A stretch of DNA of 64,000 nucleotides from contig JABDGP010000007.1 of the NCBI GenBank assembly GCA_013285945.1, positions 1 to 64,000 on the forward strand, read 5' to 3'. The translations under genes were made by a program, and so were the position numbers. Below, piece after piece: positions 19,854 through 44,936 of this stretch. This DNA is from Bacteroidota bacterium. Its GTDB lineage: Bacteria; Bacteroidota; Bacteroidia; Cytophagales; Cyclobacteriaceae. The stretch's first letter is position 1, and every line of letters starts with the position of its first letter. The notes beneath the pieces were generated by a model, which saw only the letters and a program-made list of their open reading frames with translations, was not told where the DNA came from and searched no databases.

Positions 19854-21080
19854 TCAGATTTCTTTTGAATTGTACCGGCTTATAAAGCACTGATGCAATA
19901 GGGAAAAAAAAACAACTCCCTGATATCGTCCTAAAAAGACCTCGGTGACTCCGTAGATTAAAAATGGAAAAAAAACAAGTATACCTAAAACATTTTGATG
20001 CCTGACCGCCAGGTACAGTGGCCGCCCAATAAGGAATATAAGGGAGAGTAATCCTATTAAGCCATTTGAAAAAAGTGATTCTATAAATTGATTATGGGAA
20101 TTGTAACTTGACTTTGCGTACTGTATAAGTCCATGTGATAGAAAGTATTCGTTGAGCACCTTTTTGTAATCTCCTGTCCCGACCCCAAATAAAAAGTCGG
20201 GGTTAGCTTTTAAAGCAGCCTTCCAGAGAATCAATCTTTCCCAGTAGTCATTATTTTCCGAAGGCGCATAGCTTCTAGTATTAAGGTCGAAATGATTCAC
20301 TGCCAACATCCCTATCAAAAGGATAATTGAAATAAAAAAGGTCTTTGTCTTGGCGGCGTTGGCCTTCTCTTCAAAAAAGAATTTCAAAATAAAAAATGAA
20401 AAGGTTAGCAGCATACTAATGTATGATGTTCTGCCTGCGGTCAGCATGAGCACAATAAAGAGAAGAATGATGCTCGACACGAGAATCCACGGTGGAAGTC
20501 GGGTTATTTCATAGTACAAAAAATACAAGCCTAATGTGATGGCAAAACAAAGGTAATATGCTAAATATGTCGGCTGCAAATCGCTTTGCTGTACAAGTTG
20601 ATAAAAAAAGAAGGCTTTGCTGTCTCCGTAATGATAGAATGACAAGGAAGCAGCTGCTAAACACAGGAGACTAATTAATACCAAGCCCAAACAAAAGCTA
20701 AGGAGGATATTATAAAATTGGTCTTTTTCAGATTGAGAAGTTCTACTGAAAATAATAGGAATTGCAAATAAGCTAAAGCTTGTTTCCAAAACTTTTAATC
20801 CCATGCTGATGTCTTCAGAATATAGAAGCCCGATCGTCAACACTATCAGGTACAATCCTATATCCCACGCATTTTTCAATAAACTAAGTGAACTCCGTCC
20901 AAGGTCCTGAAACGAAACAGATAACAGACAAATACAAAACAACAACCTCACGCTAAAAAACTGAGAAATTGGAATTGTGAAAGCAAAAACAAGGATTAGA
21001 AACGCAAGTGTTTTATTCAGCCCTATTCGCGCGATAGCCTTTTGATAATTTTGACCCATCAATTTGTTTATCCTATTCAA
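19854..21080 (-). CDS. O-antigen ligase family membrane protein (copy 1)
   Basis: Polytopic inner-membrane protein of 408 residues with about ten to twelve predicted helices and the large periplasmic loop carrying GVGTGDYKKVLNEY and SYNSHNQFIESLFSNGLIG. The H-NQF--- motif is characteristic of the Wzy_C/WaaL family that polymerises or ligates polysaccharide to lipid A-core. Start is TTG at 21080, overlapping the upstream stop (TTGA); an ATG at 21059 is possible. A homologous gene lies two genes upstream (21863-23128). Which one is ligase and which polymerase cannot be decided here. Confidence 0.85.
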   Translation of the reverse strand: MNRINKLMGQNYQKAIARIGLNKTLAFLILVFAFTIPISQFFSVRLLFCICLLSVSFQDLGRSSLSLLKNAWDIGLYLIVLTIGLLYSEDISMGLKVLETSFSLFAIPIIFSRTSQSEKDQFYNILLSFCLGLVLISLLCLAAASLSFYHYGDSKAFFFYQLVQQSDLQPTYLAYYLCFAITLGLYFLYYEITRLPPWILVSSIILLFIVLMLTAGRTSYISMLLTFSFFILKFFFEEKANAAKTKTFFISIILLIGMLAVNHFDLNTRSYAPSENNDYWERLILWKAALKANPDFLFGVGTGDYKKVLNEYFLSHGLIQYAKSSYNSHNQFIESLFSNGLIGLLSLIFLIGRPLYLAVRHQNVLGILVFFPFLIYGVTEVFLGRYQGVVFFSLLHQCFISRYNSKEI

Positions 21081-21862: not shown

Positions 21863-23128
21863 TCATTTTGTCGGTTTATTCACCTTACTGTCATCGGTAT
21901 GAGTGAAAAATAAAAAGGAGTTAAAGAAAGCAAAAAAAACAATCCCACTCCTTCGCTCCAATAATGATTCCGTTATACATGAGAGAATAAAGAGCACGAC
22001 AAAAATAAGGTAAAGGCTGTTTCTTTCTTTAAATGCCAGCTTAATTGAAAAATAAAAGTTCGTTAAAAAAATGATAAGCCCAACACATCCAAATTCAATT
22101 ACAGTCTCTAAAAACTGATTATGTGCATTAAATCTTGTGCTATCAGAGTAAGTCAGTGGCGTGTATTCATTTTCGATATAACAATCCTGAAGTTCATCCT
22201 GAGTATCTCCTGTTCCAACTCCTATAACAGGGTGAGCCATGAAAAGTTTGAATGCACAATCCCATATTAATAATCGCATTTGTCGCTCCCCCCACCTCTT
22301 ACCTGCATCAAACTCGTCTCCATAATTAAACGCTTCCCTAAACCGTTCCCGATTGACCGGGAACAACATTACAATGCCAATAAAAAGAACTCCGAGAGCC
22401 GTAGCAGCAGCCATTGATCGCCAAATGCCAAACTTTTGATTAATTTTAAATGCGAAGTATCCAACACCTCCAAGGATAACTAAGACTATATGAGTTCTTC
22501 CTGCAAGAAGAAATACCGAGACAATCAAAAGTGCCAGAGAGCAATAATACAAAACCGAATTTCTTATGATCAATTGACTTAGCCCTTCAAAACGAAAATT
22601 CGCGAGGATGGCAAGTGAGAAGCAAAAATACATAGCAAGATAAGCCGCGTGCATTCCTGCGATTCCACTCAGTTTATGATAGAAATAGAAAGAGGAGTCG
22701 CCCCGCAGCAAATAGTGATACGTAGCAATTGTGAGGCACGTCAACGCTGTCAACAAGCAACTAATAACAAAAACAATCAGGATAATATTAACCTTAGTCT
22801 TGTCTGGTTTAGCTGAATAATAGAGCATAATCGGGAAAATCAATAAACTCACTTTTTTCTCAAGGTCAAAAAATGCCTGGTGCCAATTATCGGTTCTAAC
22901 CATTCCCAAAAGATTCATTAGGAAGACTGAAATAAATAAGACCATCATACCGCTAAAACGTGATTTCCCTTCACGCTTTGAGATGATTAGGTACCAAACC
23001 CAGTTAATTCCAAGTAAGATTATTATAAAATTATTTAACTGCACATCGCCAAAAGAAAATGGCATTGTAAATACAAAACATAATATCAATACATAATGTA
23101 TTTTACTTGCAAAAGAGGTTTGATTCAT
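21863..23128 (-). CDS. O-antigen ligase family membrane protein (copy 2)
   Basis: A 421-residue polytopic membrane protein of the Wzy_C/WaaL family. It shares with copy 1 the layout of helices and the periplasmic loop (GVGTGDTQDELQDCY, RFNAHNQFLETVIEFGCVG). The repeated relation to the copy at 19854-21080 suggests an old duplication or two distinct jobs, polymerase and ligase. The start at 23128 is ATG followed by NQTSFAS. Confidence 0.85.
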   Translation of the reverse strand: MNQTSFASKIHYVLILCFVFTMPFSFGDVQLNNFIIILLGINWVWYLIISKREGKSRFSGMMVLFISVFLMNLLGMVRTDNWHQAFFDLEKKVSLLIFPIMLYYSAKPDKTKVNIILIVFVISCLLTALTCLTIATYHYLLRGDSSFYFYHKLSGIAGMHAAYLAMYFCFSLAILANFRFEGLSQLIIRNSVLYYCSLALLIVSVFLLAGRTHIVLVILGGVGYFAFKINQKFGIWRSMAAATALGVLFIGIVMLFPVNRERFREAFNYGDEFDAGKRWGERQMRLLIWDCAFKLFMAHPVIGVGTGDTQDELQDCYIENEYTPLTYSDSTRFNAHNQFLETVIEFGCVGLIIFLTNFYFSIKLAFKERNSLYLIFVVLFILSCITESLLERRSGIVFFAFFNSFLFFTHTDDSKVNKPTK

Positions 23129-23166: not shown

Positions 23167-24618
23167 TTAAAAAGCCTTGTTTACAAAAAAATTAACTGTA
23201 TCTGTTTCACGTCTTAATCTTTCAAAATGTAATTTATCAAATATTGGATTAAATATGTTTATTGAAGTCATGGTTGGATACAATTCGCTGTAGTCGCCGT
23301 CCGGAAAGTAAAGGCAAACAAAGTTCTCAAACGATTCCTTCGTTTTATCAGGCTCATTTTTTAATAACCTGTATCCATGATCACTGGTTAGAATTATGAA
23401 TGATTTGGGGTTATATCTCAAAATTGTATCAATTGATTTCTCCAAGAGCTTATTCGTATATTTTAGCTGGTCCAAATAAGGCTCACTTCGGCTAAAGCTT
23501 GGGTTTGTCGATGGCCTCAGTGCCCCAGTACTATCGTAAATATAGGGATGGTGGGGAAGCAAAAGATGACAATAAACAATCTTCGGTCGGTCTTGCTTTT
23601 CCTTAGATATCCGCTCTAGTTCATTCAATACACTTAAATGATCCATATAAGTATACCTGTAAATGATTCTCATAGGAAGAGTCTTTGATAACAGGTAATT
23701 ATTAAAATTCGGATAGAGAAATCGATCAAAATAGAAAGGCTTCGTATTTAAAATGTCAAAAATTGAAAGATTATATATATCATAACCCTTTAGATAAAAC
23801 TCCTGAAAAACTCTACTATTCTTGATCTTACTAATTATTTTTTTTTGAGTTTCAATATACCGGTTAGTTGAATTTAAATTTAAATCCTCTGTTAAAAACT
23901 CATTGTTTAGCATGGAAGCCATGCTGCTCCCAGTATTATTGTAATTACTTCGGGAATGTGGAATGTAATAAAAGCCCTTTTCCTTAAGAGCATTTATAAA
24001 CTTATTATTGTTGTAGTTCCAGTATTTTTTCAGATTGTCGGCATTTGCATATGCATCCGTTACTATAAAATAAACGTCTGGTCGCCCCTGCCCACTTACG
24101 CGGCTCTTATCAAGGTACTCCATTAAAGCCCTTCCTTCACTCACTCTGCCTACGGTCACTGTTAGAATAACCACCTCCATCGCCAGATACACTAAGAGTA
24201 AAACGTTAAGGTAGAGGTTTAAGGTCTTAAGCCCTCGTTTGGTAGTAAATAGAAACAGCGCGATTCCGGCAATGAAAAAGACTATCAATAATATAAAATA
24301 ACCCTCTTTTAAAAAGTTCTTAATAAAGGCCGAGGAAGAAGTAAAAAGGAAAAATAAATGGGCATAGAACAAAGTTGTCAACATTACTGTGGTTGTAAAA
24401 ATCGCTGACGGTATGCTTTTATTTGTAATGCTGGTTAATAGCAACTTTAACGAAACGGGAAGGGTGAGCAAAACAACAAATGGAATCAGAGTCTCATCGA
24501 ACTCCATTTCGCCATTCAATTCATTTATATTATAAAAAAGAAAAAATATCCCGCAAACACTGTAATGGAATGATCGGTCTCTGGCCAGCTCAAAGAGCGA
24601 GTCCCATCTTTTACTCAT
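23167..24618 (-). CDS. Membrane sulfatase/alkaline-phosphatase superfamily enzyme
   Basis: The 483-residue protein has about five N-terminal membrane helices (to about residue 155) and a periplasmic domain of the sulfatase/alkaline-phosphatase fold. Metal-binding Asp is D188 in IVTDAY; a likely nucleophile is T229 in YNNTGSSMASM; LLPHHPYIYD and the metal-binding TSDHGYR complete the site. Related membrane enzymes transfer phosphoethanolamine or phosphoglycerol, or hydrolyse esters; which applies is unknown. The nucleophile is Thr, not the Cys of type I sulfatases, which favours phospho-group transfer or hydrolysis. It overlaps the upstream kinase/methyltransferase gene by four bases, so the two are likely co-translated. 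Confidence 0.85.
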   Translation of the reverse strand: MSKRWDSLFELARDRSFHYSVCGIFFLFYNINELNGEMEFDETLIPFVVLLTLPVSLKLLLTSITNKSIPSAIFTTTVMLTTLFYAHLFFLFTSSSAFIKNFLKEGYFILLIVFFIAGIALFLFTTKRGLKTLNLYLNVLLLVYLAMEVVILTVTVGRVSEGRALMEYLDKSRVSGQGRPDVYFIVTDAYANADNLKKYWNYNNNKFINALKEKGFYYIPHSRSNYNNTGSSMASMLNNEFLTEDLNLNSTNRYIETQKKIISKIKNSRVFQEFYLKGYDIYNLSIFDILNTKPFYFDRFLYPNFNNYLLSKTLPMRIIYRYTYMDHLSVLNELERISKEKQDRPKIVYCHLLLPHHPYIYDSTGALRPSTNPSFSRSEPYLDQLKYTNKLLEKSIDTILRYNPKSFIILTSDHGYRLLKNEPDKTKESFENFVCLYFPDGDYSELYPTMTSINIFNPIFDKLHFERLRRETDTVNFFVNKAF

Positions 24619-25976
24619 TTTGTAAACAGATAAATAAGCCTTTCCGAATTTGTCATTTCAACTTTTTTGATCAGTTTAAAGTGACGGCTAAACTCCAGTT
24701 CAAAATTATCCCTGGTATAATCATCGTAAATGTCTTCTTTGCTCTGAAGGAGCGTTTGAACCATTGGATCAGATTTTGGGACAAATTCAATTATAAGGTT
24801 ACTCGTGACGGATGCAAAATGAATAGCAATTTTGTAAAAAGGGATATTATAAAAAATAACCAAATGATGTATCAAAGCCAACGCAAGAACAGTGTCCACC
24901 TCAATCCTTTCAAAAAAAGACTGTCGCTCAGAATTTGCCCATCCAAATGAAGGCGTTGGATTTATTGCATCAATTACTAAAGGCAGAATAGAAGTCAATC
25001 CTTCCCTTTTACACATCAAATAATTTCTTTCAACGGAAACCTGGTCGCTGTCAGTTGCTATCACTTCAAATCCCAAGCCTCCCAAATGCCTGCTTATCGT
25101 TCCGTCGTTTGCTCCAAAATCTAAAATCTTCTTTGCATTGTGTATAAGTAAAAGGTCACTTACGGTTTTTATCTTGAAATGCAAATAAGCATCGGATACA
25201 TCCTCTTTATAATATAAAGACCAATTAGAAACAGCATTCCATTCGATCTTAAGTACCTGACTAAGCAGGTCTTCAGTCAGACGCTTAATGTAGTCGGCAT
25301 TAAATGATTTGTAGGTTGCGTGATGCCCCTTACTTTTGTATTTGATCTTGGATCTCGTATGTAGAACAATATGAAGCAAAACTCCCAGGGAAACCTTGTT
25401 CCTTCTCTTCAATAATTTGTTGACAAGTTCAAGAGGGATGCCATCGATGAAGGCATTAAAAAGTGCTGATAAGCCAGCATCTACTTTTGAGATCAAAAGC
25501 AATGGACCGAAGAAATGCTCACAAAACTGCCGATAGGCCATCCAAGGCTCCCCTTCAATGTAAAATCGAAATGACAGCGTGTCTATCAGAACAGCCCTCC
25601 CTTTATAAAATTGAATATTATAAGCGCTGCAGTCTTTAAGTATCATTTTATACTTAATAGCAATTTGTTGTATTTTGAGAGTTGCTATAGCAGCATCCTT
25701 CAGCTGGCTAAATGTCCATTCGCTTGGGTACGAGATCGTGACAACAGAGGGTTTGATCGCTTTGTAGAAATCGCTTTTCAATTCGCTTTTGATTTCTTCA
25801 CCAATTTCCTGATGATCAATTATTAAATTACTGCTTCTTAAATCATGGAAAAGTCCTGATGACATTAAGTGATCATATTCTTTAACATAATTATTTTTAA
25901 TCACTCTGACAATAGCGCCTTTAAATTCGATAACTGATCCGTTTGGATCTTTGAAAGAGCTTTTGTGAATTTTCAT
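24615..25976 (-). CDS. Kinase-like domain fused to SAM methyltransferase (NoeA-like)
   Basis: A 453-residue protein resembling the NoeA-type methyltransferases. Numbering from the ATG at 25976, the N-terminal part has a kinase-like catalytic loop: D115 in LKDCSAYN with N120 five residues later, and D132 in LIDTLSF in the DFG position. The C-terminal part is a class I methyltransferase with motif I ILDFGANDGTIS (about 284-295) and acidic ATDSDQ (about 307-312). Both halves seem intact. The substrate is unknown; a sugar or lipid-linked glycan is likely from context. GTG at 25979 directly precedes the ATG. It starts three bases after the stop of the small membrane-protein gene and overlaps the sulfatase-like gene. 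Confidence 0.8.
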   Translation of the reverse strand: MKIHKSSFKDPNGSVIEFKGAIVRVIKNNYVKEYDHLMSSGLFHDLRSSNLIIDHQEIGEEIKSELKSDFYKAIKPSVVTISYPSEWTFSQLKDAAIATLKIQQIAIKYKMILKDCSAYNIQFYKGRAVLIDTLSFRFYIEGEPWMAYRQFCEHFFGPLLLISKVDAGLSALFNAFIDGIPLELVNKLLKRRNKVSLGVLLHIVLHTRSKIKYKSKGHHATYKSFNADYIKRLTEDLLSQVLKIEWNAVSNWSLYYKEDVSDAYLHFKIKTVSDLLLIHNAKKILDFGANDGTISRHLGGLGFEVIATDSDQVSVERNYLMCKREGLTSILPLVIDAINPTPSFGWANSERQSFFERIEVDTVLALALIHHLVIFYNIPFYKIAIHFASVTSNLIIEFVPKSDPMVQTLLQSKEDIYDDYTRDNFELEFSRHFKLIKKVEMTNSERLIYLFTK

Positions 25977-25979
25977 CAC

Positions 25980-26138
25980 CTAATTCTCTTCTTTATGCTT
26001 CTTGTTGAATATCCGTAGAATAAAGAATTTTATTTTCTTTATATATACCAGGATACCAAGAACGGAGGCTAGGATTACTTGAAAAATTATGCTGCCACTC
26101 GCCGGATCTATATAAACTATTATATTAAGAGATTTCAT
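25980..26138 (-). CDS. Small membrane protein, YIDPASGS motif (52 aa)
   Basis: A 52-residue reading frame fills the otherwise empty 190-base gap between the kinase/methyltransferase gene and the SDR gene. It starts with ATG at 26138 and ends with TAG at 25980. The product has a short N-terminus, the motif VYIDPASGSIIFQ at residues 8-20, one membrane helix (about 17-32) and a very basic tail (KKIKFFILRIF, KKHK). I remember comparable mini-proteins with a YIDPGSGS-like motif in other polysaccharide loci, which supports it being real. The stop is three bases from the next ATG. Function unknown; membrane anchoring of a partner enzyme is one guess. Confidence 0.75.
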   Translation of the reverse strand: MKSLNIIVYIDPASGSIIFQVILASVLGILVYIKKIKFFILRIFNKKHKEEN

Positions 26139-34189: not shown

Positions 34190-35230
34190 TCAAGTCCGGG
34201 ATCTAGTTAATGCAATTGTACTTAATCCAAGTGAATTGCTAACATTTGGACGATTCTTAATACAAAAACAAATCAAATTATACTTATTCATTTCATTTCC
34301 TAATGAGGCAACCAAAGCAAGGGCTTGTTCTGACAGAGCTATATTAGAAGTGCTTATTAGTAAAGAAAAATCAAAATTACCAGCATTAATCTTTAAGGTC
34401 CACTCATATTTTCCCTGCCATAAAACTACCACTTCCAGATCTTTTACATTTTTGTTTACAAGTCCTGAAAAATTAAGTGTGTCATAACTATCACCAGCCA
34501 ATACTACTAGAGCCTCATCGTGTACAAAAATAACATTTTCCTTTCTTGAGATTTTTAATGCATCTGCTTTTTGATCAAACCCGCGATAAAAATACGGCAA
34601 GTGTTCATCGGAATTACTCGAAATCGCGGGGAGTGGGGTGAATTCAAGCCTTCTCTTTACTTCCCTATTAGGTGACCCCACCTGAATACTATATGGGGAT
34701 ACATCTTTCGTAATCACAGTGTTTGCTCCAATCACTGCACCCCTCCCTATATACACACCTTGTTTGATAAATACACCATATCCAATCCAGCAGTCCTCTT
34801 CGACTCGGATTGGTTTTGAATGCTCTTTTCTTCCACTTTCTGAACTAAGAATCAAGGCGTCCTGATCTTTAATAAGCAATGAGGGGTAAGACTGGGCATA
34901 ATGATTTCCGGAACTAGCAAATATGTTAGCCGAAAACAAGCAGTGTCGCTCTATCACTACATCTCCCAAGAGTTTACATCCGTCATTTAAGGTTGAGTTA
35001 TCTTTGATGAGGATATGATTGTTTTCCCAAACATGTAATTCGCAGTTCCTTCCAACCCCGGCATTGTCTCCAATCCTGATTGATTGATTAGCCTTCGCTG
35101 TTCCTTCGGAAGAAAAAATGATCCGAGAGAATGCACCTATGCCCGACCCTTTTCCAATATGAAATTGGAATATGTTATTAATGTAAACACACTTTAAAAG
35201 CAGTTTTATTAAGTGCTTTACCTTGCTCAT
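34190..35230 (-). CDS. Hexapeptide acyltransferase with an unassigned C-terminal extension
   Basis: Residues 1 to about 215 form a left-handed beta-helix acyltransferase (hexapeptide rungs; GNHYAQ with likely catalytic His; IRVEEDCWIGYGVFIKQGVYIGRGAVIGANTVITKDV). The last 130 residues, after about 215, are not hexapeptide repeats and I do not recognise them; they contain GFDQKADALKISRKENVIFV and look alpha/beta. The gene overlaps pseI by four bases, which suggests a role in acylating the nonulosonic acid or its glycan. Confidence 0.78.
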   Translation of the reverse strand: MSKVKHLIKLLLKCVYINNIFQFHIGKGSGIGAFSRIIFSSEGTAKANQSIRIGDNAGVGRNCELHVWENNHILIKDNSTLNDGCKLLGDVVIERHCLFSANIFASSGNHYAQSYPSLLIKDQDALILSSESGRKEHSKPIRVEEDCWIGYGVFIKQGVYIGRGAVIGANTVITKDVSPYSIQVGSPNREVKRRLEFTPLPAISSNSDEHLPYFYRGFDQKADALKISRKENVIFVHDEALVVLAGDSYDTLNFSGLVNKNVKDLEVVVLWQGKYEWTLKINAGNFDFSLLISTSNIALSEQALALVASLGNEMNKYNLICFCIKNRPNVSNSLGLSTIALTRSRT

Positions 35231-36294
35231 GAAAGATTCAAAAAATCAAAACCCAAAGGGGAGCCACGTTTTATATCAGACCGAGCTCTTTTACCAAGCG
35301 CCATATCATAATACTTGGGGGGTAATCCATCACCTGGACGAATTATTCGAATGTTGTCCTTTGTCAGCAACTCTCCTGCTCTGATATCTTTGACTATATA
35401 TATTGACCTCTTGAACATCTTACTTTTTTCTTCGGCTTTTTGAACATCGAGTTGCACCTTTCCCATTGCCAGATAGGCTCTTTCACTTTCAATTACCAAT
35501 TGTTTCATTTCCTCGGGCTCCATACTAAATGTACTATCTACTCCGCCATCTGCTCTTCTGATGGTAAAATGCTTTTCAATTACTCTGGCACCTAATGCCA
35601 CTGATGCAATGCTTGCTCCAACTCCCATCGTATGGTCGCTCAAGCCAATGATGCAATCACGAAATATCTGTTGGAGAACCGGTATGGTTACTAGGTTTGT
35701 ATTTTCGGGAGTAGACGGGTATGTACTCGTACACTTGAGCAGTACGATCTTATTACATCCATTTTCTTTAAGAACCTGAACCGATTCGATGATATCCGCC
35801 AGATTAGCAATTCCAGTGCTCATAATTACTGGCTTGCCTGTCTGCGCTACTTTTTTGAGAAGATGATGGTCAGTATTCTCAAATGAAGCAATTTTATAGC
35901 ACGGAACATTTAAGGTCTCCAGAAAATCGACAGCTGTTTCATCAAACGGAGTACTAAAGCAAATTAGCCCAAGTTCGAGGGCATAATCGAATAACGGTTT
36001 ATGCCATTCCCACGGCGTGTGAGCCTCCTGATAAAGCTCATATAAGTTCCGTCCGTACCATAGAGATTTCTTATCTGTTATATCAAATAACCCACCGGTG
36101 TGGTTTATAGTCATGGTGTCGGCCGTATAGGTTTGTAATTTTACGGCATGTGCTCCGGTAGTTGCGGCAATTTTTAATATTTCCATAGCTCTATCTAATG
36201 AGCGATTGTGATTTCCGCTCATCTCGGCTATGATAAAAGGCTGGTGATCTGCCCCGATTAACCTGTCAGCAATTTTTATTTCAACTCCGTTCAT
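35227..36294 (-). CDS. pseI: Pseudaminic acid synthase
   Basis: NeuB-family enzyme that condenses a 6-deoxy-2,4-diacetamido hexose with phosphoenolpyruvate to form a nonulosonic acid. The 355 residues show IIAEMSGNHN, VKLQTYTADTMT, STPFDETAVDFLE, KIASFENTDHHLL, LLKCTSTYPS, GLSDHT and EKHFTIRRADGGVDSTFSMEP, followed by a SAF (antifreeze-like) domain with RIIRPGDGLPPKYYD. The TADTMTI and DGGVDSTFS segments favour PseI over NeuB. It overlaps both neighbours by four bases, so it is part of a tightly coupled module. Confidence 0.93.
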   Translation of the reverse strand: MNGVEIKIADRLIGADHQPFIIAEMSGNHNRSLDRAMEILKIAATTGAHAVKLQTYTADTMTINHTGGLFDITDKKSLWYGRNLYELYQEAHTPWEWHKPLFDYALELGLICFSTPFDETAVDFLETLNVPCYKIASFENTDHHLLKKVAQTGKPVIMSTGIANLADIIESVQVLKENGCNKIVLLKCTSTYPSTPENTNLVTIPVLQQIFRDCIIGLSDHTMGVGASIASVALGARVIEKHFTIRRADGGVDSTFSMEPEEMKQLVIESERAYLAMGKVQLDVQKAEEKSKMFKRSIYIVKDIRAGELLTKDNIRIIRPGDGLPPKYYDMALGKRARSDIKRGSPLGFDFLNLS

Positions 36295-37733
36295 ATTTTT
36301 TTATATTCATATCGATACGAATTAGGATAATCGATCGTCTCCATTTGTGCGAACCCCAGGTTCAAAAATATTTTTTTTGAACCCTCATTTTCTTTTTTTA
36401 CATAGCCAACTACTGCGATAGAACTATCGCGTTGTTGATAAAACAGTTCGATTGCTTTCTGCAAGACAAGTTCACCCCAACCTCGCCCTCGGTAATTTTT
36501 ATCTAAGGAATAACTTATCGTCGCGTACTCATTTACATCAAAACGAACCTGTGCAAATAAGATATTTTTAAAGGCAAATATAAAAAGAAGATCGGAGGAG
36601 TCAGATATCTTCTTCATAAACCAAGAAGTATGTTCTTCAAGTTCAATAGGCCTTGAATTGTATGATTGCCTTCGCAGATCTGGTTCATTAGTCCATTCAA
36701 ACAGCATCAATAGATCGTCAGGAACTGCTCGTCTAACCTTGCAGTTAAGTTCAAAGTCTAATCGATTAAAAATTTTTAAAATCCGCTGGTCTGAATTTCC
36801 ATCAAATATCCTCAGTCGATTTTGGGTTGCCGATTGTACTTTTTCGGGCTCAACTCGAAAATTTTCAAGTTTAAAAGCTAGGTTGTTCTGTATTAAGAAT
36901 GAAAAAAAATGGCTTTGATTTTCGGCTGTTTGCCTGAGATACAATTCTCCACCAACACTTAGATATTCGTAGGCAATCCCGCTGGCAGAACAAATAGCAA
37001 CTCCCGTCTTTTTCATGATTCCGGCAAGCGAAGAGGATTCGAGATTGCTTAGTATCTCTATTTTAAATGACGATTCATCAACTACATCAACTATATTTTG
37101 AAGGGACTGCCGATGTGCAAAGGCTTCTCCAAGAACAATATAACAAGTGTTAAAAGAAAAATTCAGTCCTATCTTTAGGGCTGAAAGTGTATGGTTTTCG
37201 GGATCGGCTCCCCCCATACAGATCAACAAATTAGTTTCCCGGTTGTTAATCGGTGCCTCTTTTGAGGCTTCTCGAAATGGTTTTTTGAGCATCGCAAACG
37301 CTGGGCCAAAAAAAGTCTTTGTATAGGGCTCTTTTGAATATTCAGAAAGGCTAACATCACCGGCAGGATTAATCAAAACATCTGAAACGAAGTGATAAGA
37401 ATGTATATCGTCAATACACACTAATTTACACCCATGTTCTTTTACCTCTTGTTGATAGGCAGTGTTGAAATTATAACCATCAAGAACAACTATTTCATGT
37501 CCGGTAAGCTGACGTTTAAGTTCATCTAAATCGTTGTTTCCTTCAACATCAATAATTTGATGCCCACTGGCATGAATGAGTTTACTTATGCCGGGTAAGG
37601 GTGATCGAATCAGATATATACACGTGAAATGCCGGGATAAAATTTCGCCTAATGCCAGTAAGCGGTGAATGTGGCCGAGGCCAATCCTGCTATTCCCGTC
37701 TGCTCTTAAAAAGACCTTTGTTTTCGCAACCAA
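36291..37733 (-). CDS. Fusion: PseG UDP-sugar hydrolase plus GNAT acetyltransferase
   Basis: Residues 5 to about 320 resemble PseG, which removes UDP from UDP-2,4-diacetamido-2,4,6-trideoxy-L-altrose: RADGNSRIGLGHIHR with candidate catalytic H21, ICMGGADPENHT, and GVAICSASGIAYEYL. Residues about 335-478 are a GNAT acetyltransferase (NEPDLRRQSYNSRPI, NYRGRGWGELVLQKAIELF). PseH, the GNAT that acetylates the 4-amino group, is the natural identity of the second half, so one protein would carry two consecutive steps. The start is TTG at 37733, one base after the upstream stop; no in-frame ATG lies close by. Confidence 0.88.
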   Translation of the reverse strand: MVAKTKVFLRADGNSRIGLGHIHRLLALGEILSRHFTCIYLIRSPLPGISKLIHASGHQIIDVEGNNDLDELKRQLTGHEIVVLDGYNFNTAYQQEVKEHGCKLVCIDDIHSYHFVSDVLINPAGDVSLSEYSKEPYTKTFFGPAFAMLKKPFREASKEAPINNRETNLLICMGGADPENHTLSALKIGLNFSFNTCYIVLGEAFAHRQSLQNIVDVVDESSFKIEILSNLESSSLAGIMKKTGVAICSASGIAYEYLSVGGELYLRQTAENQSHFFSFLIQNNLAFKLENFRVEPEKVQSATQNRLRIFDGNSDQRILKIFNRLDFELNCKVRRAVPDDLLMLFEWTNEPDLRRQSYNSRPIELEEHTSWFMKKISDSSDLLFIFAFKNILFAQVRFDVNEYATISYSLDKNYRGRGWGELVLQKAIELFYQQRDSSIAVVGYVKKENEGSKKIFLNLGFAQMETIDYPNSYRYEYKKI

Positions 37734-37734
37734 T

Positions 37735-39024
37735 TTACCGTATTTTAAACAAGGGCTTTAATGGTTCACATAGTAGAAATTTTTTGAGGTCATTACTCTC
37801 AAAAGCATTGACTACTTTTTCAAAGTAACCGCGATAACTTTTTAATAAACTCTCAACGTCTTTCTCGCTATGGGCATAATTGATATTATGAGTACCAATC
37901 ATAAAAATTCCATTGGCAAACATTTCCTGCAGAAGGAGGGTTTTTAACTCCCAGGAATTAAACTGCTCATTATCTTTAATAATAAAAAACGACCAGACCG
38001 GATAACCCGAAACGCTAAATACGTGGCCGAGTTTATATTCAGCAATAAGTTGATTCAAGCTCTTCATGATTTCTTCTCCCGTCTTAAAAAGTTTGGCAAC
38101 AACAGGCTCTCGTTGAAGCTTATTGAGTGTAGCGTAAGAAGCTGCCAGAGATAAAGTCTCGCCACCGAAAGTAAATGAGAAGAAAATCTCTTCCATTAAT
38201 TTCATGATTTCTGCGCTACCTGCTACGGCTGACACGGGATACCCATTAGCTAACCCTTTGCCAAAAGTCGCCAAGTCGGGTGTTACGCCGAAAAACTCTT
38301 GTGCTCCTCCATTAGCATACCGAAAGCCGGTAATGGTCTCATCAAAAATCAAAACGGCTCCATGCAGCTGAGTCAACTCTTTTACTTTTTGCAAAAATCC
38401 ATTCTCGGGAGCAGTTGTATTTACGGGTTCTAAAATAACTGCAGCAACCTTTCCTTTTAACTCATTTAATTTTGATTCCAACGAGGCAATGTCATTATAG
38501 AAGAATTTATGTGTAAGGTCTTTAACTGCCTTAGGGACACCAGAATCACGAGTAGTAGACCCGATATACCAATCCTGCCATCCGTGATATCCGCAAACTA
38601 AAACATGATCACGTTTGGTGTAAGCCCTAGCTAACCTGATTGCGCCTGATGTTGCATCAGACCCATTCTTACCAAAGCGCACCATTTCAGCGCAGGGCAC
38701 CATCTCCACGATTTTCTCGGCCACTTTAAATTCCAATTCGTGAGAAAGAGAATAGATGGTTCCATTCTGGAGTTGTTCAGTAACAGCCTTAGTAACATCG
38801 GGATCATTATATCCCAACGTGATGGAGGCTAGGCTGTTTACAAAATCAACGTATTGATTTCCATCTACATCCCAGATATACGCACCTTGCCCTCGTTCTA
38901 CAAAGAAAGGAGAAACCCCTATCGGTAATTGAGTTTTACTCTTACTAAATGTTTGAGAACCTAAAGGGATGGTCTTTAAAGCTCGGGCCAAATAGTCTTC
39001 GGATTTTTTATAACGTTTACTCAT
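37735..39024 (-). CDS. Class III (HemL-like) aminotransferase
   Basis: PLP-dependent enzyme of 429 residues, similar to glutamate-1-semialdehyde aminomutase: WDVDGNQYVDFVNSLASITLGY, RFGKNGSDATSGAIRLARAYT, FDETITGFRY and PLP lysine K256 in FGKGLANGYP. HemL-type genes are expected with haem genes, but this one overlaps the cytidylyltransferase gene by four bases inside the nonulosonic acid module. It therefore probably aminates a sugar, not glutamate semialdehyde. The classical pseudaminic acid route uses only the DegT-type PseC, which leaves this enzyme unexplained. Confidence 0.85.
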   Translation of the reverse strand: MSKRYKKSEDYLARALKTIPLGSQTFSKSKTQLPIGVSPFFVERGQGAYIWDVDGNQYVDFVNSLASITLGYNDPDVTKAVTEQLQNGTIYSLSHELEFKVAEKIVEMVPCAEMVRFGKNGSDATSGAIRLARAYTKRDHVLVCGYHGWQDWYIGSTTRDSGVPKAVKDLTHKFFYNDIASLESKLNELKGKVAAVILEPVNTTAPENGFLQKVKELTQLHGAVLIFDETITGFRYANGGAQEFFGVTPDLATFGKGLANGYPVSAVAGSAEIMKLMEEIFFSFTFGGETLSLAASYATLNKLQREPVVAKLFKTGEEIMKSLNQLIAEYKLGHVFSVSGYPVWSFFIIKDNEQFNSWELKTLLLQEMFANGIFMIGTHNINYAHSEKDVESLLKSYRGYFEKVVNAFESNDLKKFLLCEPLKPLFKIR

Positions 39025-39782
39025 TTATCTTCCTTTTTAATTGATTTACTATATCCTTCATTTCTAGTGATCGAACTGTTGATTGATTTTATTTCGCGGT
39101 TTCCTTCGAGATAATTTGCATAATCAAGCCAGGTTTTGTCTGATCCAATCGCTGACACAAGGTTACTAATCAGTACAAAATCATCAGGTTCATCAACAGT
39201 AAGTCTTAAATGGCCGCATAAATATCCTTCTTCAAAATTATCTGAAATAAATTCGGTACCTCCTTTAAAGGTTGAGTTTTTCCAAATATAAGGAGTCACA
39301 TGTTCGCGCTCTGAAGTAAGTCGGGCTTCTTTCCATGCTTTTTCTAATGCCGCGTATCGAAATACTTCAACATCTTCTCCATCAGGATAGGTCGGAGATA
39401 ATGTATTTGAACAATAATCCAGGTTGTGATCAATTGTGAATTGAATTATTTTATCAATAAGTTCTGCATCAATCAGGGGGCAGTCTGATGTTAATCTAAC
39501 CACGTAATCGGGGTTCTTGTCGTTCAAAGATTGATAAAATCGATCGAGTACATCATCTACAGATCCGCGATAAGAATTTTGATTTAGCTTCTTTGCGATT
39601 TCTGTTATTACTTTGTCCTCTTCTTTTTCAGTGGTAGCAATTATCAAGTCATCAATCATTTTTGATTTGAGAATTCTCCGAATATGCAATTCGAGAAGTG
39701 TCGTTCCATTGATCTCTTTTAAAACTTTCCCTGGCAATCGTGTTGATCCAGTACGGGCTTGTGTAATTGCTATGATTTTCAT
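39021..39782 (-). CDS. SpsF-type cytidylyltransferase (likely CMP-nonulosonate synthetase)
   Basis: About 253 residues from the ATG at 39782. It begins IIAITQARTGSTRLPGKVLKEI, the nucleotide-binding start of the CMP-sugar synthetase (SpsF/PseF) family, and has RLTSDCPLIDAELID and the DYCSNTLSPTYPDGEDVEVF segment typical of SpsF. In this context it should activate the nonulosonic acid with CTP. The frame is open to 39806, but that start would overlap pseC; the ATG lies seven bases after the pseC stop. The last 25 residues are polar and vary from the family. Confidence 0.83.
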   Translation of the reverse strand: MKIIAITQARTGSTRLPGKVLKEINGTTLLELHIRRILKSKMIDDLIIATTEKEEDKVITEIAKKLNQNSYRGSVDDVLDRFYQSLNDKNPDYVVRLTSDCPLIDAELIDKIIQFTIDHNLDYCSNTLSPTYPDGEDVEVFRYAALEKAWKEARLTSEREHVTPYIWKNSTFKGGTEFISDNFEEGYLCGHLRLTVDEPDDFVLISNLVSAIGSDKTWLDYANYLEGNREIKSINSSITRNEGYSKSIKKEDK

Positions 39783-39789
39783 CAAGTAT

Positions 39790-40950
39790 TTATTTAGCAA
39801 TTTCAAGAATTGATTTAATTACATAATCCTGTTCCTCTTCCGTTAAGGTTGGATACATGGGCAGGCTAAGGCACTGTTCGTAATAGTTTTCAGCCTGAGG
39901 AAAGTCACCTTTTTTATTTCCCAGAGACTGATAATAGGGCATGGTATGAACAGGGGCATAGTGAATTTGAGCATAAATGCTATTTTTTCGAAGCTCATCA
40001 TACACAGCCTTTCGATTACTCACCAACACGATGTATAAATGATATGCATGCTTTCCCGATGCGGGGGGCTTCAAGCTTCTGACACCCGCGTTCTTGAATG
40101 CTTTATCGTATTTACTTGCAATTTCCCATCTTTTTGAAAGTCCCTCATTGGCTCTTCTTAGTTGCGATATCCCCAATGCACATTGCATGTCGGTTAAACG
40201 ATAGTTATACCCCAAGTCAATCATTTCATAGTACCATCCTCCATGATTTTCTTTCATCAAATGCGAATCTCGGGTAATACCATGGGTGCGCAACAACAAA
40301 AGTTTTTCGTACAGGCCTTTATTATTAGTCGTTACCATTCCTCCTTCACCACAGGCAATGTGTTTAACCGGATGAAACGAGAAAATTGATAAATCGGCAT
40401 AAACACCATTACCACACATTTGCTTTTGGCCATGGCTATTCATAAAAAAACCTCCGGGAGCATGGCAAGCATCTTCGATAATCCAAAGACCGTGTTCGTC
40501 GGCTAAGTTTTTGAAAGGCTCAAGATTGACAGGATACCCTGCAAAGTCTACCGGTATAATTCCTTGATAAGTTCCCTTGGGCGATGATTCCAAAAGGTGC
40601 TTGACCTTTTTAAAGTCAAGAAGAATTGTTTCAGGATCAACATCGCTGAACACCACCTCTCCGCCGCAATACCGAATACAGTTTGCTGAAGCAGCAAACG
40701 TGATTGGCGTAGTAATAATTTTGGAGCTTTTGTTGACCTCCAAAGCCAGTGCGGCCAAATGAAGTGCCGCTGTCCCGTTTGCTACAGCTACAGCATATTT
40801 AGCCCCTACATAGCTGGCAAATTTTTGTTCAAACTCGTTGACCCTGGGGCCTTGAGTCAAATACTCAGAGGTAAGAGACTCAGTAACTGCGAGGATATCT
40901 TCGGGTGTAATATTTTGTTTGCCGTAAGGAATTATTTTCATCCCATCCAT
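39790..40950 (-). CDS. pseC: UDP-4-keto-6-deoxy-N-acetylaltrose aminotransferase
   Basis: DegT-family, PLP-dependent enzyme of 386 residues that adds the 4-amino group during pseudaminic acid synthesis. Signatures: YGKQNITPEDILAV at the N-terminus, VANGTAALHLAALAL, TTPITFAASANCIRY, EDACHAPGG and PLP lysine K196 in SFHPVKHIACGEGG; the HP-KH-A-GEGG form is typical of PseC. The start at 40950 is ATG; a second ATG lies at 40941. Its substrate is the product of PseB, encoded two genes upstream. Confidence 0.93.
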   Translation of the reverse strand: MDGMKIIPYGKQNITPEDILAVTESLTSEYLTQGPRVNEFEQKFASYVGAKYAVAVANGTAALHLAALALEVNKSSKIITTPITFAASANCIRYCGGEVVFSDVDPETILLDFKKVKHLLESSPKGTYQGIIPVDFAGYPVNLEPFKNLADEHGLWIIEDACHAPGGFFMNSHGQKQMCGNGVYADLSIFSFHPVKHIACGEGGMVTTNNKGLYEKLLLLRTHGITRDSHLMKENHGGWYYEMIDLGYNYRLTDMQCALGISQLRRANEGLSKRWEIASKYDKAFKNAGVRSLKPPASGKHAYHLYIVLVSNRKAVYDELRKNSIYAQIHYAPVHTMPYYQSLGNKKGDFPQAENYYEQCLSLPMYPTLTEEEQDYVIKSILEIAK

Positions 40951-40994
40951 TGATTATGTTATTTCAATTATTACAAAAGTATTAAGTGCCGATT

Positions 40995-41876
40995 TCACAG
41001 TTTCCAATTTGAAGGATTGAGCAGTGAAGTATTTTCGACTTGCAGTTTGCTTAATCTTTCCATCGCGTCTTCCGGAAAAACGGGAAGAATTGAGTCTATA
41101 TTTTGATCCAATTGCAGCTCAGTTTCTACTCCAATGAGTACATAGTCAATGTGGTTTTCACCAAGGGCAAAATTCAGGCAAGCCTGCATCACGCTAAGAT
41201 TATAGTCTGTTCTTATCTGATGAAAGTTGTGTAGTGGGTTTCTCAACTCCGTTAAATTTCCTAAAAGATCTTCGGGGTTTTTAAAAAAGAGGCCTTGCAA
41301 GAAAATTGAGCGCACGTGTATTTCTTTACCCTTCTGCTTTGCCCGTTTGAGCAAGTCTCTTTTTTGAGAGGATGCATCAAATGGATTATAAGGAATCTGA
41401 ATCACCGAAATCGTCTCATCATCGATAGCCTTCATAAACTCCTGAAGATGATAAACAGACAATCCGATTTGTTCAATTTTATTATTCTTTTTCAAATCAA
41501 TCAATTCCTTATGATTCCTTCCTGATACATAATCTAAATATCTATGATACATGTAAACATATAATCTATCAATAGCAAGCCCCTCCAGTGTCTTTTGAAC
41601 CTTTTGGGTCAGAGGGGTATCATCGTGGATAAATTTGCTTATTACTTTTTTAAACTGATTCTGTTTATTCTCTTTATGATAGCGTCCTATTATTTCTAAA
41701 GAATCTCCGTAGGCGTCCGCCGAATCTAAGATTTCAATGTTATAACTCCGTGCTTTTCCAAGAATCTTAAAAGCCTCCATTTGATCAGGCTTTCCCAAAC
41801 TATTATTGATTCCGTAAGGGAGACCCAACTGTACGGTTCCCAGAATCAATTTCCTGCTGCTTTGGACTGAGTTCAA
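40995..41876 (-). CDS. Aldo/keto reductase family protein
   Basis: A 293-residue TIM-barrel oxidoreductase: LILGTVQLGLPYGINN, a DSADAYGDSLEIIG segment with the catalytic Asp and Tyr, and VIQIPYNPFDASSQKRDLL. The usual His is hard to place (YMYHRYLDY is likely). It lies between pseB and pseC, overlapping pseB by four bases with a TTG start, so it is surely part of the nonulosonic acid module. The known route does not require a reductase, so it may act on a side branch. See findings. Confidence 0.85.
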   Translation of the reverse strand: MNSVQSSRKLILGTVQLGLPYGINNSLGKPDQMEAFKILGKARSYNIEILDSADAYGDSLEIIGRYHKENKQNQFKKVISKFIHDDTPLTQKVQKTLEGLAIDRLYVYMYHRYLDYVSGRNHKELIDLKKNNKIEQIGLSVYHLQEFMKAIDDETISVIQIPYNPFDASSQKRDLLKRAKQKGKEIHVRSIFLQGLFFKNPEDLLGNLTELRNPLHNFHQIRTDYNLSVMQACLNFALGENHIDYVLIGVETELQLDQNIDSILPVFPEDAMERLSKLQVENTSLLNPSNWKL

Positions 41877-42883
41877 GCTTCAAAATTTGAATCGACAAAT
41901 TTTTTTATTAATTGCCGCAAACTATCAACCGTTTCCCATTGAGCATTGCTACCTGAATCATAACTAAACCCCGCCGGAACATTTACACCCTTAAAATGAT
42001 TTTTGTATTCCTTTATGTCAAAAATTGGTTGTTGTGGCAAGATGCAATAGTATTTTCCAAGGTCAATTGTATTAATGGAGTCAGAAGCGGTAATCATTTC
42101 TTCATGTAGTTTTTCTCCTGGCCTCATTCCCACCAACTCCTGTCTGCATTCTGGCCCAATTGCCGTTGCAACGTCTACGATTTTATAGGATGGAATTTTA
42201 GGTACAAAAATTTCGCCCCCCCAGGCATTTTCGATAGCATTGAAAACCATTTCACATCCATCTTCCAGTGAAATATTAAAACGAGTCATGCGATTGTCGG
42301 TGATAGGAAGTACCCCTTCTTTTCTCTTCTTTAAAAAAAATGGCATTACAGAGCCATTAGATCCCATCACATTTCCATAGCGAACGACCGAGAAAGTGAT
42401 GTCTCTTTTTCCCCTAATATTATTCGCAGCGATAAACAACTTATCTGACGCCAATTTAGTAGCACCATAAAGATTAATCGGAGCAGCAGCCTTATCTGTA
42501 GATAGTGCCACAACTTTTTTTATTCCACATTTAAGAGCAGCGTTAATAACATTTTCAGCGCCAAGTATATTTGTTTTAACACATTCCATAGGGTTATATT
42601 CTGCCAAATGAACGTGCTTCATCGCCGCAGCGTGTATGACAATGTCTATTCCTTCAAATGCGCTTATTAATCTGCTTTCTTCTCTTACATCGCCAATGAA
42701 ATAACGGATGGCTGGATATTTATCTTCGGGGTATTCAATGGCCATTTGATAATGTTTTTGCTCATCTCTGGATAGGATGACAAGTCGTTTTACCTCAGGA
42801 AATCTTTTAAAAATTAATTTGGTAAACATCTTACCAAAAGAACCGGTACCTCCGGTTATCAATACACTTTTATTGTTAAGCAT
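41873..42883 (-). CDS. pseB: UDP-GlcNAc 4,6-dehydratase (inverting)
   Basis: First enzyme of the pseudaminic acid pathway: dehydrates UDP-GlcNAc at C4-C6 with inversion at C5. The 336-residue SDR starts NNKSVLITGGTGSFGKMF and has HAAAMKHVHLAEYNP, ALSTDKAAAPINLYGATK (catalytic Asp, Lys, Tyr) and RYGNVMGSNGSV, all typical of PseB. The TDKAA-P-N-YGATK motif separates it from the larger membrane-bound PglF type. It opens the nonulosonic acid module; 11 bases separate it from fcl. Confidence 0.95.
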   Translation of the reverse strand: MLNNKSVLITGGTGSFGKMFTKLIFKRFPEVKRLVILSRDEQKHYQMAIEYPEDKYPAIRYFIGDVREESRLISAFEGIDIVIHAAAMKHVHLAEYNPMECVKTNILGAENVINAALKCGIKKVVALSTDKAAAPINLYGATKLASDKLFIAANNIRGKRDITFSVVRYGNVMGSNGSVMPFFLKKRKEGVLPITDNRMTRFNISLEDGCEMVFNAIENAWGGEIFVPKIPSYKIVDVATAIGPECRQELVGMRPGEKLHEEMITASDSINTIDLGKYYCILPQQPIFDIKEYKNHFKGVNVPAGFSYDSGSNAQWETVDSLRQLIKKFVDSNFEA

Positions 42884-42894
42884 AAATTTTATCT

Positions 42895-43824
42895 CTAAGA
42901 TGCAATATTCTTATCCGTTTCAACTAAATTCCTGAGCCCAGATTCGAGGTCAATTCTGTATTTCCAACCTAAGCTTGTTAACTTACTTACATCCATAAGT
43001 TTACGGAAAGTTCCATCAGGTTTGGAGGGGTCAAATTTAATGTCGCCATTAAATCCGGTTATTTTTTTTATCAATTGTGCCAGTTCAGCAATCGAAAGAT
43101 CTTTCCCGGTACCAACATTTATGAACCCAGTCTCTTTGTAGTACGTCATCAAGAATAGGCACGCATCAGCCAAATCATTCACATGTAAAAATTCTCGCAT
43201 TGGAGCTCCCGACCCCCAAACTTCTACAAAGGGCAACCCGTTTATTTTTGCATTAATAAATTTCTTTAGCAAAGCAGGTATTACGTGCGAGTTGTTCAAA
43301 TTATAATTGTCATTAGGCCCGTAAAGATTAGTTGGCATTGCGCTGATAAAATCACATCCGTATTGCCTTCGGTAGCTCTCACATAGTTTTATACCCGCAA
43401 TCTTAGCTATTGCATAGGGTTCATTGGTTTCCTCAAGAAATCCTGAAAGCAGATACTCTTCTTTTAAAGGCTGGTGCGCCAACTTGGGGTAAATGCAAGA
43501 TGAACCGAGAAACAAGAGCTTTTTAACTTTATGAACATAACTCTGTTGGATCACGTTACTCTCGATCATGAGATTTTCATAAAGAAAATCCGCCCGGTAC
43601 GTATTGTTGGCCAGTATACCCCCAACTTTTGCTGCAGCCAAAAAAACATATTCAGGCTTTTCCGTGGAAAAGAAACTTTCAACTGCTGCCTGATTTCTCA
43701 GATCAAGTTCGGATGAAGATCTCAGCACCAAATTAGTGTAGCCTTCACTAGTTAATTTTCTCACAATCGCAGACCCGACCATACCATTATGGCCAGCTAC
43801 GTAAATCTTAGATGATTTTTCCAT
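42895..43824 (-). CDS. fcl: GDP-L-fucose synthase
   Basis: Epimerase/reductase that turns GDP-4-keto-6-deoxymannose into GDP-L-fucose. The 309 residues show [47 protein letters not shown], the catalytic [12 protein letters not shown] and [12 protein letters not shown]. Length is normal. Start and gmd stop share one base (TAATG), so the two steps of the fucose pathway are made from coupled genes. Confidence 0.96.
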
Positions 43825-44936
43825 TATTCGTGATACTGGAAAATTTTATGTCCTCCTTCTTTCAAGTAATGATCACGCTTGAAGAGTTCAAGGTCGCTCT
43901 TTACCATATCATCAATCAAAGAATCCAAATTGTATTTCAATTCCCATTTCAAATCGCGTTTTGCTTTAGTTGGATCACCAATTAATAACTCAACCTCCGT
44001 TGGCCTAAAGTATTTTGGATCAATCTTTACGACAACTTCTCCCACCCGTACTTTAACATCGGTATTTGAGATTTTAGAAACATATCCTATTTCATCAATT
44101 CCTTTTCCTTTAAACTCAATATCAATTCCCAATCTTTGGAACGCCTTGATGATAAACTCTCTTACTGTAGTTGTAACCCCTGTGGCTATTACAAAATCAT
44201 CAGCCTTATCTTGCTGAAGCATTAACCACATCGCCTGAACGTAGTCTTTGGCATGTCCCCAATCACGCTTCGCGTCTATATTACCCATAAATACAGTCTT
44301 TTGAAGCCCCAAGGCAATGCGGCAGGCTGCCCTTGTTATTTTCCGTGTGACAAACGTTTCACCACGCAAAGGCGACTCATGATTAAATAAAATTCCATTG
44401 CATGCAAACAGGTTATAAGCCTCCCTGTAGTTCACTGTGATCCAATAGCTGTATAGCTTTGCTACTGCATAAGGGGAGCGAGGGTAGAACGGTGTTGTTT
44501 CGCTTTGTGGTACTGCCTGTACCAATCCATAGAGTTCTGATGTTGACGCCTGATAAAATTTCGTTTTTTTTGTCAAGCCCAAAATCCGAATTGCCTCAAG
44601 TATTCGCAGGGCACCGATACCATCAGCATTTGCTGTGTATTCTGGCATATCAAAACTTACCTTCACATGAGACATTGCCCCAAGGTTGTAAATTTCATCA
44701 GGTTTAACTTCCTGGATAATCCGGATCACATTGACGGAGTCTGTCAGGTCACCATAATGAAGTCGGAGATTTACGTTTTCTTCATGTGGATCCTGATACA
44801 GATGATCAATGCGATCGGTATTGAATAAAGAGCTTCTCCTCTTCAATCCATGAACTTCATACCCCTTTGAGAGCAGTAATTCTGCTAAATAGGCACCATC
44901 TTGGCCGGTAATACCTGTGATAAGGGCTTTTTTCAT
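43824..44936 (-). CDS. gmd: GDP-mannose 4,6-dehydratase
   Basis: Forms GDP-4-keto-6-deoxymannose from GDP-mannose. The 370-residue extended SDR has [16 protein letters not shown], the [18 protein letters not shown] segment that binds cofactor, [17 protein letters not shown], and catalytic [13 protein letters not shown], then [18 protein letters not shown]. All are standard for Gmd. It is the first gene of the 34-gene minus-strand block and has a good promoter candidate just upstream. Confidence 0.97.

Follow-up and report, generated by a model that had tools for sequence, protein, structure and literature searches.

A conserved one-helix mini-protein as the third component of NoeA-NoeB-type gene modules

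The NoeA/NoeB pair is already known; what is new in the present analysis is a mini-protein as their conserved third component. In the 64-kb window, as the whole stretch of DNA that was analysed is called here, the three genes lie on the minus strand between positions 23167 and 26138. The mini-protein gene (25980 to 26138) starts with an ATG at 26138 and encodes 52 amino acids, beginning MKSLNIIVYIDPASGSIIFQ. Three bases separate its stop codon from the ATG at 25976 of the second gene, which encodes a NoeA-family fusion of a kinase-like domain and a methyltransferase (24615 to 25976, 453 amino acids); with an alternative GTG start at 25979 there would be no gap. This gene shares four bases (ATGA) with that of a NoeB-family sulfatase-like membrane enzyme (23167 to 24618, 483 amino acids). 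The initial annotation had described three coupled genes, encoding a sulfatase-like membrane enzyme, a kinase-like/methyltransferase fusion and a small basic membrane protein, and both the arrangement and these assignments are confirmed, the membrane enzyme as a member of the alkaline phosphatase (AP) superfamily. It had left all three genes unplaced, which no longer stands for the larger two, since by homology these are relatives of NoeA and NoeB (PMC9758233).

As a check, the initial annotation had suggested looking for the three families together in different phyla, and such co-occurrence was found. A profile of 13 NoeA sequences identified 80 loci, most of them in MAGs, which cover more than 20 phylum-level lineages, and the addition of plasmid loci, loci from the same phylum and the window itself gave 94 NoeA loci. 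A mini-protein homologue is present in 90 of the 94 and a NoeB-like gene in 70. Since the profile-derived 80 are those most closely related to the query, more divergent NoeAs may show lower rates; L020/G222, for instance, has no mini-protein. Where there is enough flanking sequence (74 loci), the mini-protein is found in 72 and NoeB in 56. The mini-protein is just upstream of NoeA in most loci, a median of 21 bp then separating its stop codon and the SFRDP motif of NoeA, and downstream in six. About a quarter of complete loci have no adjacent NoeB, and in all four genomes of this kind that were tested NoeB is present elsewhere.

The association also holds at the level of genomes, where the search scored first-look candidates only. 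Among 297 genomes from the phylum of the window, 10 have NoeA; 9 of these 10 also have the mini-protein, at identical loci, compared with none of the other 287 (Fisher 2e-16). The mini-protein profile was partly seeded from same-phylum loci, and the independent test is therefore the one conducted in a gammaproteobacterial class of 219 genomes. There, all 9 NoeA genomes have a mini-protein, 8 of them at the NoeA locus, against 6 of 210 genomes without NoeA (Fisher 2e-12). Taken with the 72 and 56 of 74 loci, this indicates that the mini-protein is tied more tightly to NoeA than NoeB is.

The mini-protein consists of a short N-terminus, one membrane helix and a basic C-terminal tail. Its family is characterized by the motif Y-[IL]-D-P-G-[TS]-G-S-x3-Q followed by the helix and the tail, which usually contains Trp. 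Motif, helix and basic tail are all present in the window mini-protein, where YIDPASGS is encoded at 26091-26114 and the conserved Q at 26079-26081 (minus strand); the motif reads YIDPASGSIIFQ, with a single substitution of G by A. With its PASGS it diverges from the rest of the family, and it has no signal peptide. Across the family YxDPGTGS is near-invariant and often directly at the predicted signal-peptide cleavage site, with AxA before the Y. Deviating motifs such as YLDGNSGS and YFDQGTGS are also found. In its own genome the window protein is recovered by the profile with an E-value of 9.8e-16, its sequence being one of the 21 profile rows. The dN/dS values between two congeneric relatives are 0.19 for the mini-protein, 0.15 for NoeA and 0.20 for NoeB; judged from sequence, the mini-protein is under purifying selection.

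No model in Pfam or NCBIfam covers the mini-protein or gives a significant match, and literature searches for the motif or the gene trio found no paper naming either. The mini-protein is thus missing from the family libraries searched, yet it may already have been described. The profile count was used in preference to a regular-expression search, which fixes Y/F/L-x-DP by construction and in which independent evidence can therefore come only from the Q, the later G/S and the helix positions. A tblastn search of plasmids with a consensus-like mini-protein gave no match, though pSymA carries one, which marks the limit of its sensitivity; the same search gave one weak phage match (8e-4). A VYIDPRSDAG sequence near the N-terminus of S. 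meliloti NoeB was considered as a fused copy of the motif and is too weak for such a claim. Matches with YIGPGGG and YVGPGLG in L163 (6417-6653) and L233 (6248-6451) were discarded as family members, as they resemble a different small protein; each is located between two larger genes, one of which in L163 is sulfotransferase-like. Variants with YIDPN(T/A)GG are found in L166 (6214-6411), L213 (9901-10167) and L103 (6625-6780). The YIDPNTGG protein of L166 adjoins a type I phosphodiesterase-family enzyme (PF01663), and one of the other variants adjoins a CysD-like gene.

The NoeA-family fusion matches the annotated S. meliloti noeA with 99% coverage and 30.9% identity (tblastn, E 6e-57). A family search returned only weak methyltransferase matches, and no match for the fusion was found in a sequence search of solved structures. 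The AlphaFold model (mean pLDDT 91.3) has an N-terminal kinase-like domain (residues ~1-215) and a C-terminal class I SAM methyltransferase (~262-453). The stretch from the kinase-like catalytic loop to the metal-binding Asp (25581 to 25634, minus strand) contains D115, N120 and D132 (LKDCSAYN ... LIDT, numbered from the ATG), and SAM-binding motif I (D-x-G-x-N-x-G, residues 286-292) is at 25101 to 25121 on the same strand. In 45 NoeA homologues D115, N120, D132 and R24 are invariant, as are D286, G288, N290 and G292 of the SAM motif. The residues equivalent to D115, N120 and D132 have been named as the kinase site, and in the kinase N-lobe of the family no Lys or ion-pair Glu was identified (PMC9758233). 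The invariant Arg of the fusion probably stands for the usual kinase Lys.

The NoeB-like enzyme has N-terminal membrane helices (~18-172) followed by a periplasmic alkaline-phosphatase-superfamily domain (model mean pLDDT 83; PF00884, E 2.6e-10). The best PDB fold matches are the phosphoethanolamine transferases EptC (E 9.4e-8), EptA (2.9e-7) and MCR-1; the fold search also returned YejM/PbgA. With EptA, EptC and MCR-1 it shares the fold, the combination of membrane helices with a periplasmic domain and an Asp/Thr/Asp-His site, although sequence identity is only ~11-15%. The predicted active site (23377 to 24057, minus strand) is made up of D188, the candidate nucleophile T229, H351/H356 and D413-H414-G415. 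Across 28 homologues D188, H351, H356, D413 and G415 are invariant and T229 is at least 90% conserved; H414 is mostly kept and is sometimes Glu. D188 and T229 lie 41 residues apart, a distance resembling that between the metal ligand and Thr nucleophile in EptA. A true formylglycine-type sulfatase was rejected, there being no Cys/Ser-x-Pro-x-Arg site and Thr229 in NYNNTGSS in its place.

The genes noeA and noeB have reportedly been known since 1995 as host-range nodulation genes. In the nodL-noeA-noeB operon on pSymA of S. meliloti, NoeA is homologous over its full length (31%), NoeB is of the AP-fold membrane type and the gene order is alike. That order is nodL, a hypothetical ORF, noeA, noeB. 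The ORF, annotated merely as hypothetical, reads ...AHAYLDPGTGSMLVQ... (YLDPGTGS), and the mini-protein is thus present in the classical nod operon. The settings differ, as the S. meliloti genes form a host-range nodulation operon with nodL, while here the module is in a nonulosonic-acid glycan locus of apparent Wzx/Wzy type. The literature searched gave no reaction, activity, substrate or product for members of the NoeA or NoeB families. A 2022 survey of the Legionella kinome described the NoeA family (Lani_1194) as having kinase and methyltransferase domains, with two conserved and mostly same-strand neighbours in 65% and 38% of 816 neighbourhoods, one of them NoeB-like (PMC9758233). A YxDPGTGS protein is not described in the main text of that paper (PMC9758233), and the neighbour found in 65% (Lani_1193; PMC9758233) may be the mini-protein.

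The mini-protein also occurs away from NoeA. In genome G504 it is with a NoeB-like gene at a distance from NoeA (L164). In genomes that have no NoeA, it accompanies NoeB-like enzymes (L158, L159), is beside a CDP-glycerol-type phosphotransferase (PF04464; L160, L226, L232) or, in two genomes (L161, L162), is fused N-terminally to such an enzyme. PF04464 enzymes use cytoplasmic CDP-glycerol, and these fusions therefore place the C-terminus of the mini-protein in the cytoplasm; the basic tail suggests the same. The mini-protein loci L218 (830-3179) and L226 (7854-10178) contain a phosphonopyruvate decarboxylase and an iron alcohol dehydrogenase, which resemble phosphonate-pathway enzymes at scores below the curated cut-off and suggest surface phosphonate synthesis.

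Extra YidC-type genes abut the mini-protein gene in L084 (8621-10564), L094 (8672-10408), L104 (4582-6222), L162 (1423-3912, fused to a sulfatase domain), L169 (2910-4541), L218 (4412-6115) and L226 (4752-6338). YidC homologues are also near the mini-protein in L158 and L232, and one adjoins NoeA in L165. YidC inserts short one-span membrane proteins, and insertion of the mini-protein by its presumed YidC partner fits this textbook knowledge.

The locus around the module in the window encodes a Wzx-type flippase (Polysacc_synt), Wzy_C-type O-antigen polymerase/ligase-like proteins, NeuB and CTP_transf_3, with no ABC exporter seen among the scanned ORFs, and from its gene content looks to be of Wzx/Wzy type. 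Just downstream of the module, two PF04932 O-antigen ligase/polymerase-like genes (19854-21080 and 21863-23128) flank a WecG/TagA glycosyltransferase. Nonulosonic-acid-type genes (NeuB, CTP_transf_3, Polysacc_synt_2, aminotransferases) and GDP-mannose dehydratase-like genes are at 35227-44936, and a single plus-strand ORF of 2906 amino acids is at 54653-63373.

On balance, it seems somewhat probable that the three genes form a NoeA-NoeB-type module which adds a phosphate-type substituent to a surface or lipid-linked glycan. Since the phospho-type partners of the mini-protein are on both faces of the membrane and the mini-protein is common to them, a membrane-coupled phospho-decoration unit with the mini-protein as adaptor is favoured. 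On the cytoplasmic side of the inner membrane, NoeA would phosphorylate a saccharide, or else another lipid-linked compound, and might then methylate the phosphate. At the periplasmic face NoeB, with its EptA/MCR-1-type architecture, would transfer or remodel a phospho-group by way of its Thr nucleophile. The mini-protein would cross the membrane a single time, its YxDPGTGS motif facing the periplasm and its basic tail, in most members with a Trp, facing the cytoplasm; it would keep NoeA at the membrane and couple it to NoeB. For the genome analysed here, the substrate is likely to be the nonulosonic-acid-containing Wzx/Wzy glycan of the surrounding locus.

The initial annotation had proposed a phosphate or methyl modification of the glycan, for example a methyl phosphate that terminates chain growth. 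A phospho-type modification is still the best general reading, and NoeA could make a methyl phosphate. The terminator itself is unsupported, though possible. The model for it is WbdD of E. coli O9a, which likewise has a kinase and a class I methyltransferase on one polypeptide in glycan synthesis (PMC3482155). By analogy NoeA would phosphorylate and methylate the non-reducing end, halting growth, assisted by NoeB and the mini-protein. WbdD entries do take ranks 1, 3, 4 and 5 in the fold search of the fusion, but the alignment spans only ~200 columns, which is one domain, and generic methyltransferases have near-equal E-values. WbdD has its methyltransferase first, then the kinase and a coiled coil, and capping by WbdD is a feature of the ABC-transporter pathway (PMC3482155), whereas the NoeA-family fusion has the kinase-like domain first and no coiled-coil tail. 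The Wzx/Wzy character of the window locus weakens the idea further, as do several NoeA/mini-protein loci outside polysaccharide clusters, and a WbdD-like terminator is regarded as improbable.

Scarcely more likely is that the mini-protein is itself the substrate or carrier, a phospho-group or glycan being attached covalently by the partner enzymes either to the conserved Tyr or Ser of its periplasmic motif or to the tail. The near-invariant motif, often at a cleavage site, and the several kinds of phospho-group enzyme among its partners would suit such a role; against it, a periplasmic motif is out of reach for a cytoplasmic enzyme, some members deviate from the motif, and the PF04464 fusions in two genomes suit a tether. 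The missing clear Lys/Glu pair (PMC9758233) and YejM/PbgA among the fold matches could instead point to NoeA as a pseudokinase or sensor and NoeB as a YejM-like hydrolase or regulator, in a module that controls envelope composition and builds no modification. This is quite improbable given that the catalytic Asp, Asn and Asp and the SAM residues are invariant and that NoeB keeps its metal-site and Thr residues. Genes of this sort often travel in glycan islands, so that their adjacency might be accidental or reflect merely a shared type of locus; such chance is hardly credible for an arrangement that is near-constant in over 20 phylum-level lineages and not confined to glycan islands, with the mini-protein under apparent purifying selection, and it is contradicted by the co-occurrence data.

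Returning to the membrane-coupled phospho-decoration unit, the conserved small ORF gives an experimental handle on the function of noeA and noeB. That it recurs beside CDP-glycerol-type transferases, in phosphonate loci and with an extra YidC suggests a general membrane adaptor for surface phospho-decoration that family libraries have missed. It is possible, and is put forward tentatively, that the mini-protein represents a new and widespread class of one-helix subunit for the transfer of phospho- and phosphono-groups in the envelope and, in the strongest form of this idea, a trans-membrane group carrier. If so, NoeA-NoeB, CDP-glycerol-type transferase and phosphonate loci would have a one-helix subunit in common, sometimes with a dedicated YidC, which has been overlooked in the nod operon.
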